From Gammaproteobacteria bacterium (GTDB lineage Bacteria; Pseudomonadota; Gammaproteobacteria; Steroidobacterales; PWYM01): 64,000 nucleotides of DNA. The DNA is taken from assembly GCA_007693855.1 (NCBI GenBank), contig RECU01000053.1, positions 124,001 through 188,000 on the forward strand, read 5' to 3'. Under the pieces are notes generated by a model, which saw only the letters and a program-made list of their open reading frames with translations, ran no database searches and had not been told where the DNA came from. This document shows positions 49,039-56,335 of this stretch, piece after piece; the stretch's first letter is position 1; each line of letters starts with the position of its first letter. The translations under genes were made by a program, and so were the position numbers.

Positions 49039-49286
49039 GATGAACGTCGGTGCTCGGCAGTGGCTGTGGAGTGCTGCGCGGATTGTAATGGATGTCAGCC
49101 CGCCGCACTCCACAGCCGCTACCGTAGCACGCAGACCTGAGCCTGTAGAGCCACGCGTGAATCCAGCCCATCGGTACAGGCGTAGGTGTTGCGCGACAGA
49201 CACAAAACGACACTTGTCGCGCGGTTGGGCTGATGAAGGTGTTGGCGGCGCGCACCCCTGTGGCATTGACCTGTCCCGACAGGCGT

Positions 49287-49300
49287 GATTGTATACAGCC
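49287..49300. promoter_or_regulatory. GntR/FCD-like palindromic site, GATTGTATACAGCC
   Basis: TTGTATACAg core 119 bp upstream of a TonB receptor start; the exact reverse complement of the 14-mer occurs at 53883-53896 upstream of another TonB receptor. Confidence 0.5.
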
Positions 49301-49418
49301 TGACCGGCAGGCTGGGGGGCCGCCGTCAGCACGCGCCAGACAGGGACAAGACTTCGGGGATCGTGCCGCCAGACGTCGAATCAAACCAGCGAATCAAAAA
49401 TCATTTAGAGGACTCGCC

Positions 49419-51899
49419 GTGAGCAAAACCACCGCTACACCGCTTCGTACCGCCGTCCGGCGGGCCATGTTGTTGTCGGGCGTCGGACTCGTGATGGGCA
49501 CGCCCGCCTACGCCCAGATCGACGAAATCGTCGTTACCGCCCGTCAGCGCGCCGAACTGCTGCAGGACGTCCCGGCGTCCGTCACGGCCTTCACCGCCGC
49601 GGACATCACTGACGCGGGTATCGTCCGTCCCGAAGATTTCATCGCGCTGACGCCCGGCGTCACCATGATCAACAGCACCGAAGCCGGTGACCTGCAGGTC
49701 AACATCCGCGGCATCAACACCTCGCGCGACGCTGAAACCAACTTCGCGCTGATCGTCGACGGCGTGCTGCTGACCAATCCGAACGCCTTCAACCAGGAGT
49801 TCGCCAACATCTCGCAGATCGAAGTGGTGAAGGGTCCCCAAGGCGCGCTGTACGGCCGCAATGCCGCGGCCGGCGCCATCATCATCACCACCGAGCAGCC
49901 GGGCAACGAGCTGCTGGGTAACGTCAAGGTCGGCGTGGGCAACAACAACACCTTCACCGGCAGCGGCTCGGTCAGCGGCCCGCTGATCGCCGACACCCTC
50001 TACGGTGGGCTGAATTTCGCCTATCGTGATTCCGACGGCCATTTCACCAATGCGTTCACCGAGCGCAAGGAAGTCGACGACTACAACGAATGGGTGGTCG
50101 GCGGGCGCCTGGTGTGGGACGTGTCCGACGCGCTGACCGTTGACATGAAGGCGCGTTACAGCGAGATCGACTCGGCGGCAATCGGCTTCAACGCCTCCTT
50201 CGCACTGCCGTTCCTGGTCGACGCCTTCGGCAACCCCGATTTCGCGCCGGACGTGAACGACCACCGTTTCGTCTACCAGAACAACGTGGTGCCGCAGAAC
50301 GAGCAGGAGAACCTGAACATCTCGATCAAGGCGGACTGGGATCTCGGCTTCGCCACGCTGACCGGCATCGCCGCGTTCAACGACCAGGAGCAGTACTTCC
50401 TGACGGATGGCACCAGCGCCGCGTTCGGCATCTACTTCGCCGAACCGACCTGTCTGGCCTCGCTGGCCGATCGTGCGGTGGACTTCCCGCAGCCTTCGCC
50501 GTTCTTCAACTTCGGCTCACCGGCAGCGAGCCTGTTGCCTCCCTACTCGGCCACCACCTGTGACGGCTACCAGTACCAGGTGCGCAACCAGGAAGATCTG
50601 TCGTTCGAGCTGCGCCTGACCTCGCCTGGCGATGCCCCCCTGCGCTGGATCGCCGGCGTGAACTACGTCGACATCGACCGCACGGTCATCGTCTCCCAGG
50701 GCGCTGACCTCAACCGCGGCTTCCTGCTCGAGCCCTACGTGCCGCCGACCGGTCCGAACCCGACTGACCTGCTGTTTTTCGATGATTACTCGAACAAGGT
50801 GTTCGCCCTGTTCGGCAACATCGGCTATGACCTGAGAGATGACCTCGAGCTCTCGGTCGCGCTGCGCTATGACCGCGAGCGCCGGCGGGTGCAGAACCGC
50901 GTGCCCACGGATGCCGTGGCACCGTTCATCAACCCCCTTGGGCTGGACGCACCGCCGATCAACCCGGCCCTGCTGTTCGCCGACACCATCCCCGCGCGCT
51001 CTGAGACCTTCAGCCAGCTGCAGCCCAAGCTCAGCCTGACCTGGTCGATCAACGACGAGTGGAGTGTGTACGGCAGTTATGGGGTCGGCTTCCGCAGCGG
51101 CGGCTTCAACTCCCAGGGCGTCGAGGCGACCATCGAAGTGTTCTATACCGACGCCTTCAACGCCCAGCTGTTCAATGCCCGCGACGAGTTCGACAAGGAA
51201 GTCTCCAAGTCTTTCGAGGCGGGCGTGAAGAGCACACTGCTTGATCGGAGATTGTCGCTCAATGCCGCCGTGTTCCACACCAGGGTCGACGACATGCAGT
51301 TCTTCAACTTCTTCGCTGGGCCGTTCGGCCTGCTGCGCGTCGTAACGAATATCGATGAGGTCGACCTGACCGGCGCCGAGGCCGATTTCCGCTTCCGCAT
51401 CAACGACAATTTCACCCTGTACGGTGGCGGCTCGGTGCTGGACAGCGAGATCAAGCGCAACTCCAACCGGCCTTACACGGTCGGTAACAAGGTGCCGATG
51501 GCGCCAACCTACACCTGGAACGTGGGCGGTCAGTTCACCACGCCCATCACACCCGCACTCGACCTCGTGGCGCGCGTAGACGTGAATGGGGTGGGCCCGA
51601 CCTGGTTCGGCGAGGTGCAGGACGGCCCCGACCAGGTGGTCCCGACCCTGTTCAGCTTCTTCTCGGGTGATCCGACGCTGCCGACCGGGGATTTCTCGCG
51701 TACCCGCCGCGATTCCTACGAGCTGGTCAACGCGCGCCTCGGTGTGCGCGCCGACAACTGGAGTGCGACGCTCTGGGCGCGGAACCTGTTCGACAAGAAG
51801 TACCTGCAGGAGATCATTCCCGCGCCGGAGTTCGGTGGCTCGTTCATCCACGACTCGCCGCGCCGGAGCTTCGGTGTGGAGCTGAACTACCTGTTCTGA
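49419..51899 (+). CDS. TonB-dependent receptor
   Basis: GTG 49419: VSKTTATPLRTAVRRAMLLSGVGLVMGTPAYAQIDEIVVTARQRAELLQDVPASVTAFTAADI; IEVVKGPQGALYGRNAAAGAIIITTEQP; GVELNYLF. Confidence 0.95.
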   Translation: MSKTTATPLRTAVRRAMLLSGVGLVMGTPAYAQIDEIVVTARQRAELLQDVPASVTAFTAADITDAGIVRPEDFIALTPGVTMINSTEAGDLQVNIRGINTSRDAETNFALIVDGVLLTNPNAFNQEFANISQIEVVKGPQGALYGRNAAAGAIIITTEQPGNELLGNVKVGVGNNNTFTGSGSVSGPLIADTLYGGLNFAYRDSDGHFTNAFTERKEVDDYNEWVVGGRLVWDVSDALTVDMKARYSEIDSAAIGFNASFALPFLVDAFGNPDFAPDVNDHRFVYQNNVVPQNEQENLNISIKADWDLGFATLTGIAAFNDQEQYFLTDGTSAAFGIYFAEPTCLASLADRAVDFPQPSPFFNFGSPAASLLPPYSATTCDGYQYQVRNQEDLSFELRLTSPGDAPLRWIAGVNYVDIDRTVIVSQGADLNRGFLLEPYVPPTGPNPTDLLFFDDYSNKVFALFGNIGYDLRDDLELSVALRYDRERRRVQNRVPTDAVAPFINPLGLDAPPINPALLFADTIPARSETFSQLQPKLSLTWSINDEWSVYGSYGVGFRSGGFNSQGVEATIEVFYTDAFNAQLFNARDEFDKEVSKSFEAGVKSTLLDRRLSLNAAVFHTRVDDMQFFNFFAGPFGLLRVVTNIDEVDLTGAEADFRFRINDNFTLYGGGSVLDSEIKRNSNRPYTVGNKVPMAPTYTWNVGGQFTTPITPALDLVARVDVNGVGPTWFGEVQDGPDQVVPTLFSFFSGDPTLPTGDFSRTRRDSYELVNARLGVRADNWSATLWARNLFDKKYLQEIIPAPEFGGSFIHDSPRRSFGVELNYLF

Positions 51900-52031: not shown

Positions 52032-52607
52032 TCAGAGTGCGAACGGCGGCTGAAGCCACAGCGCCGTCTGCGCCATCGACCACCCGAGCAGGCCACCCGC
52101 GAGCACGTCCGTCGGGTAATGCAGGCCAAGGATGACCCGCGAGGCGGCGACCAGCAGCGCAAACGGCACCAGGACGAGGGCGAGCAGCGGGAACCACGCG
52201 ATCGCCAGCGTGGTGAACAGCACCGCATGCAGGGTATGCCCACTTGGAAAACTGTAGCGATCGAGCGGTGGCGCGGCACAGACAATGCCCGCGTGCGACA
52301 CGAAGGGTCGCTCGCGCACCAGACGCCGCTTGAGCACGCCGTAGACAGCCACACCGCACAATGCCGCGATGGCCATCTGCAGGGCGGCGATCCGACCGGC
52401 GGGGCCGAGACCCAGTGCGCAGACCGCCATCAGGACATACCAGAACACGCCGTCGCCCAACCGGCTGACCACGGCGAACAGCCGTCTGACGCCCGGCTGC
52501 CGCGCCAGGGCGTTGATGCGCAGACACAGCTGCTGCTCGAGGAGGTCGCAGACCGCCAGCACGCGTGGCGGACGGCTGCGGGACGGTGTGGCGACCACGG
52601 TTTTCAT
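52032..52607 (-). CDS. PAP2-family membrane phosphatase
   Basis: KRRLVRERPFVSHAG (KxxxxxxRP); DRYSFPSGHTLHAVLFTTL (PSGH); SRVILGLHYPTDVLAGGLLGW (SRxxxxxHxxxD). Confidence 0.93.
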   Translation of the reverse strand: MKTVVATPSRSRPPRVLAVCDLLEQQLCLRINALARQPGVRRLFAVVSRLGDGVFWYVLMAVCALGLGPAGRIAALQMAIAALCGVAVYGVLKRRLVRERPFVSHAGIVCAAPPLDRYSFPSGHTLHAVLFTTLAIAWFPLLALVLVPFALLVAASRVILGLHYPTDVLAGGLLGWSMAQTALWLQPPFAL

Positions 52608-52630
52608 GGCCTGCAGTGTCGCCGCGCGTC

Positions 52631-52659
52631 AAGACAGCACGATGGCAGTTCGCTGACAG
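52631..52659 (-). promoter_or_regulatory. Pho-box-like array of three 11-bp-phased repeats, oriented toward the PAP2 gene
   Basis: Minus strand CTGTCAG-CGAA-CTGCCAT-CGTG-CTGTCTT; each 7-mer has one mismatch to CTGTCAT and exact 11-bp phasing. Confidence 0.55.
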
Positions 52660-52703
52660 TTGCATGAAATCTCGCGCAGCGTCGCGACCGCTGCCCCCGT
52701 GCC

Positions 52704-52732
52704 CCGTCACCTGCCTGTCACGGCGCTGAAAG
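52704..52732 (+). promoter_or_regulatory. Pho-box-like array oriented toward the GT4 gene
   Basis: CCGTCAC-CTGC-CTGTCAC-GGCG-CTGAAAG with 11-bp phasing; first two units close to CTGTCAT/C, third degenerate. Confidence 0.5.
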
Positions 52733-52766
52733 GTGTCGGTAACCTACGGCAGGCTCAATACGGGGC

Positions 52767-53828
52767 ATGCGAATCGCGATCTGTACCGACGCCTGGCAGC
52801 CTCAGATCAACGGCGTCGTCACCACCCTCGGCCATACCCGGAGCCAGCTGGAGACGTTCGGACACGACGTCGAGGTGTTCTCCCCGGCCAGCGGTTTCCG
52901 GACGGTCCCCCTGCCCGGCTATCCGGAGATTCGCCTGCCGGTGAGTCCCGGCGGGCGGCTGGGACGAGTGCTGGCCGCCTTCGCACCCGAGTGCGTGCAC
53001 ATCGCCACGGAAGGTCCCATCGGCTGGTCGGCCCGGCGCTGGTGCCTGCGCCAGGGACAGCCGTTTACGACCTCCTATCACACCCAGTTTCCCGAGTACC
53101 TGCGGGCGCGGCTGCCGGTGCCGGAGCGGTTCAGCTACGCGCTGCTGCGACGATTCCACGCACCCGCCGTGCGCACGCTGGTGCCCACCGCGCAGGTCAG
53201 GGACACGCTTGCCGCGCACGGCTTCGAGCGTCTGGTGCTGTGGACACGGGGCGTGGATACAACCCTGTTCCGTCACGATCGCCCGCCACCACCCGAGCTC
53301 GATCTGCCACGCCCCCTGTGGGTCTACGCGGGGCGGGTGGCGGTGGAGAAGAATCTCGAGGCCTTCCTGGGGCTGGACCTGCCAGGCAGCAAGCTGGTGA
53401 TCGGGGACGGCCCCGCGCGCGCCAGCCTGCAGAAACGCTACCCTGCAGCCCACTTTGCCGGCTACCGCTTTGGCGAAGAGCTCTCCAGCTGGCTGGCGGC
53501 CTGCGATGTCTTCGTGTTCCCAAGTCGCACCGATACCTTCGGGCTGGTCATGCTCGAAGCCATGGCCTGCGGTTTGCCGGTGGCAGCCTACCCGGTGAAC
53601 GGTCCGATCGACGTGGTCCGGCCCGGAATCAGCGGCGTGCTCGACGAGGACCTTGGCCGTGCCTGCACGGGTGCCCTTGCGCTGGAGCGCAACACGGTGC
53701 GTACGGAGGCCTGCCGGCACAGCTGGGGGACTGCCGCGCGCCAGTTCGAAGCTGCCCTGGTCTCAGGAGACGGCCCGGAAGCGAACGCCGAGCGCTCACC
53801 GGGCCCGGCGGACAGCGCCCTGCGCTAA
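52767..53828 (+). CDS. family 4 glycosyltransferase, resembling diacylglycerol glycosyltransferases (SqdX/Agt/MgtA-type)
   Basis: MRIAICTDAWQPQINGVVTTLGHTRSQLETFGHDVEVFSP; FAPECVHIATEGPIGWSARRWCLRQGQPFTTSYHTQFPEYLRARL; LWTRGVDTTLF; VFPSRTDTFGLVMLEAMACGLPVAAYPVNGPIDVV. Confidence 0.88.
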   Translation: MRIAICTDAWQPQINGVVTTLGHTRSQLETFGHDVEVFSPASGFRTVPLPGYPEIRLPVSPGGRLGRVLAAFAPECVHIATEGPIGWSARRWCLRQGQPFTTSYHTQFPEYLRARLPVPERFSYALLRRFHAPAVRTLVPTAQVRDTLAAHGFERLVLWTRGVDTTLFRHDRPPPPELDLPRPLWVYAGRVAVEKNLEAFLGLDLPGSKLVIGDGPARASLQKRYPAAHFAGYRFGEELSSWLAACDVFVFPSRTDTFGLVMLEAMACGLPVAAYPVNGPIDVVRPGISGVLDEDLGRACTGALALERNTVRTEACRHSWGTAARQFEAALVSGDGPEANAERSPGPADSALR

Positions 53829-54097: not shown

Positions 54098-56335
54098 ATG
54101 AAATTGCGCAGCATCACGCCCGTGGCCATGGCCGTCACCCTGGCCCTCGGTGCACCCGCCATCGCCCAGGACGCGCCGACCGGCGCCCGGACCCTCGACG
54201 AGGTGGTGGTCACCGCACAGCGTCGCCAGGAAACGGTGCAGGACATCCCGATCGCCGTCTCGGCCTTCGATGCCGGACAACTGCAGCGCGTCGGGGTGCA
54301 GAACACGCTGGACATCAGCCGCCTGATCCCGAACATGACCGGCGGCAACAACACCGGACTGGGCTCGGCGAACGTCTACACCATTCGCGGCCTGAACAAC
54401 ACCGAGTCCATCGCCACCTTCGACCCGCCGGTCGGCAGCTATGTGGATGATGTCTACATCAGCCGGCAGAATGCCAACAACCTCACGCTCTTCGATGTCG
54501 AGCGCATCGAGGTGCTGCGCGGCCCCCAGGGCACGCTGTTCGGTCGTAACACCACCGGTGGCGCGGTCAACGTCATCATGCGCCGGCCGGGCGAGGAGTT
54601 CGGCGGCTATGTGGAAGTCGGCTACGGCCGCTTCAACCGCAAGATCGCCCGCGGCAGCGTCGACCTCCCGGTCAACGATCAGGTGCTGACCAAGTTCAGC
54701 GCCTTCTGGATCGAGGACGACGGCTACGTCGACAACCTCACCACCGGACAGACCATCAACAGCGACGACAACAAGGGTGCACGACTGGATGTGCGTCTGC
54801 TGCCGAACGACGCGATCGTCTGGGACCTGTCGATGGACTACATCGACCAGGATTTCGCCAACCAGGTCAACACTCCGGACGGCAGTCGGCGCATCGCCAA
54901 CAGCGGCCTGCGCACCGACCGCAGCCTGGCCGACCTGGGCCTGACCATCGCCGGTGACAAGCAGTTCATCACCTCCGGCAACGTCACCCGCTCCTGGTCT
55001 GTGACTTCGAACTTCACCTGGGACACGCCCATCGGTGAGGTACAGTCCATCACCGGCTACCGTGACCTGAACCAGCGCTTCCTGCTGGACTTCCTGGATA
55101 TCGGGGTGCCGCCCGGTGGCTTCTCGATCGTCAACAACAGCACCCACCAGCAGTTCACCCAGGAACTGAAGCTGGCTGCCACGACGATGGACGGTGCGCT
55201 GGATTACGTGGTCGGTGTGTTCTACATCGACGAGGACAACCGCACCGACTTCGCAGACCTCATCTTCGGCACGGTGTTCGCCGATCGCATCCTCGACAAC
55301 ACTACCGAAGCCTGGGCCGTCTATGGCCAGGCCGACTACGCGATCACCGATCGCCTCACCGGCACCCTCGGCCTGCGTTACACAGACGAGAAGAAAGACG
55401 CCGACTTCAACCCCAACCCCAATCCGACGGCGGTATTCCGGTTCGCCTCCTCGGATATTGCCGAACTCGGCATTCCGCTGTCCCAGAGCACCAAGATCTG
55501 GACGCCACGGCTGGCCCTGCGCTACGACATCAACGACGAGATGAACGTGTACGCCTCGGCCACCCGCGGGTTCAAGTCCGGCGGCTGGAATGCGCGCGGC
55601 AACACCGCGGTCGAGACCCAGCCCTTCGGCCCGGAGAAAGTCTGGTCGTACGAACTCGGCATGCGCTCGGAGCTGATGGACCGCCGACTGCGCCTGAACG
55701 CCACGGCGTTCTGGACGGATGTCACCGACTACCAGCTGCCCTCGGCATTCAACTTCCCGACGGATGCCGGTGATCGTATCGTCTTCATCACCGGTAACTT
55801 CGCCGGCATGGAGATCAAGGGCCTGGAACTCGAGGCCCTGGCGCTGGCCACCGAGCGGCTGACCGTGTTCGCCAACATCGGCATCATGGATGGCAAGTAC
55901 ACCAAGCTCTCACCGGAAGTTCAGGCCCAGCAGGCGGACTGCATCGCAACCGGCAGTCCTGACAGCTGCAACCGCGGCATCATCCGCGGCGATGGCAGCC
56001 TGGCGCGGCCGCAGCGCCAGCCGGACTACACGGCGGTGATCGGCTTCGACTATGCCTGGCCGATCGCACCGAACCTCGAGCTGATTCCCTCGGCGGCATT
56101 CACCCGCTACGGCAGCCACACGGTCGGGACCAACGACGATGCGGTCTCGAACGTCAGCGGCGGCTACAGCAACCTGATCGCCGCGGTCACCCTGGAGGAG
56201 ACCAGCGGGCTGTGGAGCCTGCGCCTGGAGTGCAAGAACTGCCAGAACCGCGACCAGCTGGTCTCGACGCTGGCCGGGCAGCAGTACTACAACCTGCCGC
56301 GGACCTGGCAGGCGAGCTTCCGCTACAACTTCTGA
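54098..56335 (+). CDS. TonB-dependent receptor
   Basis: MKLRSITPVAMAVTLALGAPAIAQDAPTGARTLDEVVVTAQRRQETVQDIPIAVSAFDAGQL; VERIEVLRGPQGTLFGRNTTGGAVNVIMRRP; QASFRYNF terminus. Confidence 0.95.
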   Translation: MKLRSITPVAMAVTLALGAPAIAQDAPTGARTLDEVVVTAQRRQETVQDIPIAVSAFDAGQLQRVGVQNTLDISRLIPNMTGGNNTGLGSANVYTIRGLNNTESIATFDPPVGSYVDDVYISRQNANNLTLFDVERIEVLRGPQGTLFGRNTTGGAVNVIMRRPGEEFGGYVEVGYGRFNRKIARGSVDLPVNDQVLTKFSAFWIEDDGYVDNLTTGQTINSDDNKGARLDVRLLPNDAIVWDLSMDYIDQDFANQVNTPDGSRRIANSGLRTDRSLADLGLTIAGDKQFITSGNVTRSWSVTSNFTWDTPIGEVQSITGYRDLNQRFLLDFLDIGVPPGGFSIVNNSTHQQFTQELKLAATTMDGALDYVVGVFYIDEDNRTDFADLIFGTVFADRILDNTTEAWAVYGQADYAITDRLTGTLGLRYTDEKKDADFNPNPNPTAVFRFASSDIAELGIPLSQSTKIWTPRLALRYDINDEMNVYASATRGFKSGGWNARGNTAVETQPFGPEKVWSYELGMRSELMDRRLRLNATAFWTDVTDYQLPSAFNFPTDAGDRIVFITGNFAGMEIKGLELEALALATERLTVFANIGIMDGKYTKLSPEVQAQQADCIATGSPDSCNRGIIRGDGSLARPQRQPDYTAVIGFDYAWPIAPNLELIPSAAFTRYGSHTVGTNDDAVSNVSGGYSNLIAAVTLEETSGLWSLRLECKNCQNRDQLVSTLAGQQYYNLPRTWQASFRYNF

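Follow-up and report, generated by a model that had tools for sequence, protein, structure and literature searches.

We found that a gene for a PAP2 lipid phosphatase and a gene for a GT4 glycosyltransferase of the Agt type diverge, within the window (the whole 64-kb stretch of DNA that was analysed), from a short intergenic region with two oppositely oriented Pho arrays, and we think it likely that these arrays form divergent PhoB-activated promoters for two phosphate-starvation lipid-remodelling genes, diacylglycerol (DAG) being supplied by PlcP and by PAP2 and converted by Agt into a glycolipid. In this genome the PlcP-Agt pathway is split and has gained PAP2, which probably supplements PlcP. 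The locus is laid out as follows:

52032..52607, minus strand: PAP2 lipid phosphatase, 191 aa, with motifs KX6RP / PSGH / SRX5HX3D; Pfam PAP2, 71 bits
52608-52766: intergenic region between the divergent PAP2 and GT4 genes, 159 bp
52615..52620, minus strand: -10-like hexamer GACACT, 10 bp past the last Pho unit, with the PAP2 ATG 7 nt further on
52631..52670, minus strand: Pho array toward PAP2, four 7-mers at 11-bp phasing, four-unit score 28.2
52704..52743, plus strand: Pho array toward GT4, four 7-mers at 11-bp phasing, four-unit score 25.4
52754..52759, plus strand: -10-like hexamer CTCAAT, 10 bp past the last Pho unit, with the GT4 ATG 7 nt further on
52767..53828, plus strand: GT4 glycosyltransferase, Agt type, 353 aa, with GRVAVEKN, FPSRTDTFG and His105-Asp256

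The pair is flanked by two TonB-dependent receptor genes (49233-51899 and 54098-56335).

Two four-unit Pho arrays, conserved in relatives

Both arrays were scored with a generic PhoB 7-mer matrix derived from the known consensus, these loci not having been used in its training. The units read ATTTCAT-gcaa-CTGTCAG-cgaa-CTGCCAT-cgtg-CTGTCTT on the minus strand (from 52670 to 52631) and CCGTCAC-ctgc-CTGTCAC-ggcg-CTGAAAG-gtgt-CGGTAAC on the plus strand (from 52704 to 52743). Elsewhere in the window, or in another register, four-unit scores did not exceed 10.4 (a value reached by the minus array displaced by one unit), and 20 Markov-shuffled windows gave maxima of 7-16. Matrix scoring was restricted to regions, and the genome-wide search used a consensus pattern (three units, up to three mismatches) that matched 6 sites in the 3.28-Mb genome, 3 of them in the PAP2/GT4 intergenic region and the minus array the best of all, against 2 sites for a reversed-pattern control. 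The PAP2/GT4 arrays stand far above chance in both the window and the genome. The first-pass annotation had described divergent arrays at exact 11-bp phasing, and the sequence scan bore out their positions and orientations; its count of three units per array, however, has to be raised to four, and the third plus-strand unit that it called poor, CTGAAAG, is nevertheless kept in the alignment by two congeners.

Loss of the 11-bp repeats in orthologous intergenic regions would have spoken against Pho boxes, and the repeats proved to be conserved in G001-G004 and G012. The complete arrangement of divergent PAP2 and GT4 genes with arrays is kept in the congeners G001, G003 and G004 and in G012, which belongs to another family and has the strongest arrays among these orthologues; G002 keeps the arrays and the GT4 gene on a contig that ends before PAP2. 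Invariant columns in the alignment of the orthologous intergenic regions fall mostly inside the repeat units.

A fixed -10 register and short start gaps

A -10 element lies in fixed register, 10 bp downstream of the repeats, in 12/12 orthologous PAP2/GT4 promoters, where offset 10 alone gives a positive mean -10 score (+2.0) and every other offset a negative one. Because this offset was first spotted by eye in these same promoters, a second test was made on 42 independent arrays taken from other genomes; the mean there was +2.5 at offset 10, with negative values elsewhere. The gap from hexamer to start codon is 6-8 nt in all 12 (7 nt for both window genes, at 52608-52614 and 52760-52766; for two PAP2 promoters the automatic listing hit an out-of-frame codon, and the sequence places the ATG at 7 nt). 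Start codons so close to the hexamer suggest leaderless transcripts, and those of PAP2 and GT4 are probably of this kind; as a gap of 5-8 nt recurs in 16/42 of the distant promoters, leaderless Pho transcripts are possibly a conserved trait. The same layout deals with an objection raised earlier, that the minus array lies only 23 bp from the PAP2 start: the distance is correct, and it is short because in this promoter plan the -10 hexamer follows the array after 10 bp and the ATG comes only 7 nt later.

Elsewhere in the same genome, pstS and a porin gene next to phoU have an identical plan of four units at 11 bp, and an xAxxxT hexamer stands exactly 10 bp past the last unit in pstS, the porin gene, plcP and both window promoters. 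To gauge spacing more broadly, we used a scan of GTDB genomes that gave 80 PAP2 relatives, mostly from Gamma- and Betaproteobacteria, 71 of which were long enough to test (locus about 20 kb, promoter region 460 bp). At 11-bp spacing the best four-unit site fell in the PAP2/GT4 operon promoter in 50/71 loci, compared with only 2-7 of the loci at 8, 9, 10, 12, 13 or 14 bp. That the repeats arose by chance, or are sites of another regulator rather than Pho boxes, is scarcely credible: their GC-rich spacers and several degenerate units would fit such a reading, but the genome-wide rank, the specificity for 11 bp, the -10 register and a pstS promoter built alike all go against it, and on rank, spacing control and register together we rejected chance repeats. 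The array scores, their conservation and the promoter layout instead favour the Pho-box control of both genes that had been proposed; PhoB would bind at both arrays, and PhoB-activated co-expression of PAP2 and GT4 is, as a prediction from sequence, well supported.

Several further candidates for Pho control were seen along the way. The porin gene, which closes the pst cluster on the downstream side of phoU (L072:3-8000, G000:C6), has an array that scores 30.9, above that of pstS and one of the best that turned up in this genome. The regular phoBR-phoU genes are on C107 (L073), and a second PhoB-like response regulator (L076:6166-6936, G000:C39; 235 bits to TIGR02154, under the cut-off of 296) is divergent from plcP and is preceded by a Pho-like array of its own, with no sensor kinase noticed among its neighbours. 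Pho-like arrays also occur in L085 (G000:C99, about 35.5-38.6 kb) near mechanosensitive-channel-like and TonB-dependent-receptor-like genes, and these are possible further members of the Pho regulon.

The glycosyltransferase and PlcP

All 11 catalytic and donor-site residues that were checked against GTcp, the characterised DAG glycosyltransferase of SAR11 from whose mutagenesis the reference residues come (PMC8231724), are present in GT4 (GRVAxEKN, FPSxTDTFG and the His-Asp dyad). In several relatives from the same order its orthologues, 51-58% identical, immediately follow PlcP and form PlcP-GT4 operons with it. With motifs, dyad and donor-site residues all in place, the earlier assignment of GT4 to the Agt-type lipid glycosyltransferases holds; a DAG glycosyltransferase of that type is a well-supported prediction, and its product would be a DAG-linked glycolipid.

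The first-pass annotation suggested that PAP2 may stand in for PlcP, and proposed a look for PlcP elsewhere in the genome. That search found PlcP on another contig, at G000:C39:19088-19897, with 47-66% identity to the PlcPs that are encoded beside GT4 in relatives. Its promoter holds a four-unit Pho array that is conserved in G001, G003 and G004, and the plan of 4 x 11 bp, 10 bp and hexamer recurs at plcP of these three congeners too, so plcP would likewise be under Pho control. PlcP and agt are not adjacent in this genome (agt is on C18); such adjacency is common, not universal. A divergent, co-regulated pair with plcP lying apart from it had made PAP2 attractive as the replacement DAG source in this organism, but PlcP with its conserved Pho promoter, here and in the three congeners, makes that reading highly improbable, and with PlcP found we rejected it for this genome.

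The PAP2 phosphatase and its substrate

The PAP2 gene is the only one in the genome (the sole PF01569 match in a profile search), and its motif columns are invariant or nearly so in 44 relatives. The AF2 model has a pLDDT of 94, and the nearest folds are LpxE (6ebu, 2.3 A) and Bacillus subtilis PgpB (5jki). By motifs and modelled fold PAP2 is an integral-membrane lipid phosphatase. Among the named NCBIfam equivalogs it falls under every cut-off (SepP 58.8/250, PgpB 40.8/261, UppP 38.7/229; a match to LpxE is not listed), its best match being undecaprenyl diphosphatase, at 58.8 against a cut-off of 250. PAP2 folds serve several substrates, and the enzymes with the nearest ones, LpxE and PgpB of B. 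subtilis, have lipid A, C55-PP and PGP as theirs, so that the substrate of PAP2 is not readable from its sequence.

An alternative therefore has to be weighed, in which PAP2 is a Pho-controlled phosphatase of some other envelope lipid (lipid A 1-phosphate as for LpxE, C55-PP or PGP) that recovers phosphate and has no more than its regulation in common with GT4, all DAG coming from PlcP. The two nearest solved structures, the multifunctional and broad activity of LpxE enzymes on lipids (PMC6581854), the undecaprenyl diphosphatase match, far under its cut-off as it is, and the presence of PlcP in this very genome all fit it. What fits DAG supply better is the company that PAP2 keeps in other genomes.

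PAP2-GT4 pairs across Gamma- and Betaproteobacteria

A GT4 gene lies within 350 bp of PAP2 in 62/80 of the loci scanned, so the pairing, once thought a variant without a described match, is common in Gamma- and Betaproteobacteria. The PAP2-linked GT4 proteins fall in three deep clades with strong support in the tree. With presence set at above 250 bits, PlcP was found in 32/50 PAP2-locus genomes and was absent from 18/50. Most of the records are drafts, and in one of the 18 genomes, that of L086, a fragment resembling PlcP lies where a contig ends; single absences are therefore uncertain. In the 18 genomes without a recognisable PlcP the best array was in the PAP2/GT4 promoter in 16 and a GT4 gene was adjacent in 15; the isolates among them include Marinobacter vulgaris, M. 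fuscus, Tamilnaduibacter salinus, Luteimonas sp., Acinetobacter qingfengensis and Stenotrophomonas daejeonensis.

The order relative G012 has an identical divergent module in a genome that is 99% complete in about 10 contigs, and no PlcP was found in it. Across 61 genomes of the order, PAP2 goes with Agt-type GT4 (11/17 vs. 7/44, Fisher p = 0.0004, uncorrected for relatedness). The lone PAP2 genes of G015, G028, G037 and G051 carry Pho arrays as well. That of G037 (L185), a complete genome with neither Agt-type GT4 nor PlcP, has a strong one, and a second array lies about 0.5 kb downstream in front of another gene. G011 (L188) and G024 (L190) combine PAP2 with an Agt-type GT4 (GT4a) but have no PlcP and no Pho array at PAP2, so Pho control does not always go with the combination.

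The recurrent pairing with three deep GT4 clades and the retention of the Pho-controlled pair in genomes without PlcP make the other-lipid phosphatase an unlikely explanation, though one to be taken seriously. Returning to PAP2 as a supplier of DAG, we infer from its family, its repeated coupling to GT4 genes and its retention without PlcP that it makes DAG from phosphatidic acid. The substitution for PlcP that fails in this genome is thus viable for PlcP-less relatives (G012 and the 18/50 genomes), in which PAP2 is a plausible replacement DAG source. On a wider view, we tentatively propose that many Gamma- and Betaproteobacteria use the PAP2-GT4 pair, under Pho control, to remodel their membranes in phosphate starvation by a route that does not depend on PlcP and runs from phosphatidic acid through DAG to glycolipid, working beside PlcP here and replacing it elsewhere; this may hold, and we advance it with more reserve than the reading of the window itself.

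Discussion

In the model that we favour, phosphorylated PhoB would, as phosphate falls, bind each array of four 11-bp direct repeats, which would stand in for a -35 element, and RNA polymerase would use the -10 element 10 bp downstream to give GT4/Agt and PAP2 transcripts, probably leaderless. Agt would then glycosylate DAG to a phosphate-free glycolipid, with PlcP, from its promoter of the same build on the other contig, as a DAG source and PAP2, acting on phosphatidic acid with release of phosphate, as a probable extra one. Several points count against the model. Besides the nearest folds, which belong to enzymes of other lipids, and the PAP2 genes of G011 and G024, which have no Pho arrays, there is the matter of sidedness: GT4 enzymes draw on cytoplasmic UDP-sugars, whereas LpxE, the nearest fold to PAP2, has its active site on the periplasmic side, so with an LpxE-like active site the DAG would have to be moved across the membrane.

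PlcP is taken as the main DAG source for phosphate-free lipids in heterotrophic bacteria (PMC4796936). In a Pseudomonas aeruginosa plcP mutant, however, some glycolipid persists from an unexplained DAG source, so that a PlcP-independent source is needed (PMC8528852). PAP2 is a testable alternative supplier of DAG, the precursor that it would share with the PlcP route, and its coupling to lipid-type GT4 genes and Pho promoters, kept without PlcP, means that the question can be put to specific genes in cultured organisms. No paper that we found in the open-access literature of PubMed Central describes PAP2 and GT4 as a pair under Pho control.

With LpxE and PgpB (6ebu, 5jki) our PAP2 shares the fold and the tripartite motif, but it is only about 24-25% identical to them, forms a separate sequence subfamily of its own and is set apart by Pho control and linkage to GT4. 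A phosphatidate phosphatase has been proposed as a DAG source for cyanobacteria, as related in PMC4796936 with citation of Nakamura 2007, and the likeness lies in a membrane lipid phosphatase that supplies DAG for phosphate-free lipids; here, by contrast, the organisms are heterotrophic proteobacteria and the phosphatase is directly coupled to PhoB arrays and to GT4 genes, whether Agt-type or other. The PlcP-Agt pathway is already known, as are its Pho boxes (PMC4796936, PMC8528852), and the remodelling of Sinorhizobium, Phaeobacter, SAR11 and P. aeruginosa resembles the present system in the Agt-type GT4 motifs and dyad, in a PlcP in the genome and in Pho promoters on both plcP and agt. It differs in that here plcP and agt are split, agt being paired instead with a divergent, Pho-controlled PAP2 gene, and in that many relatives hold the PAP2-GT4 pair without PlcP.
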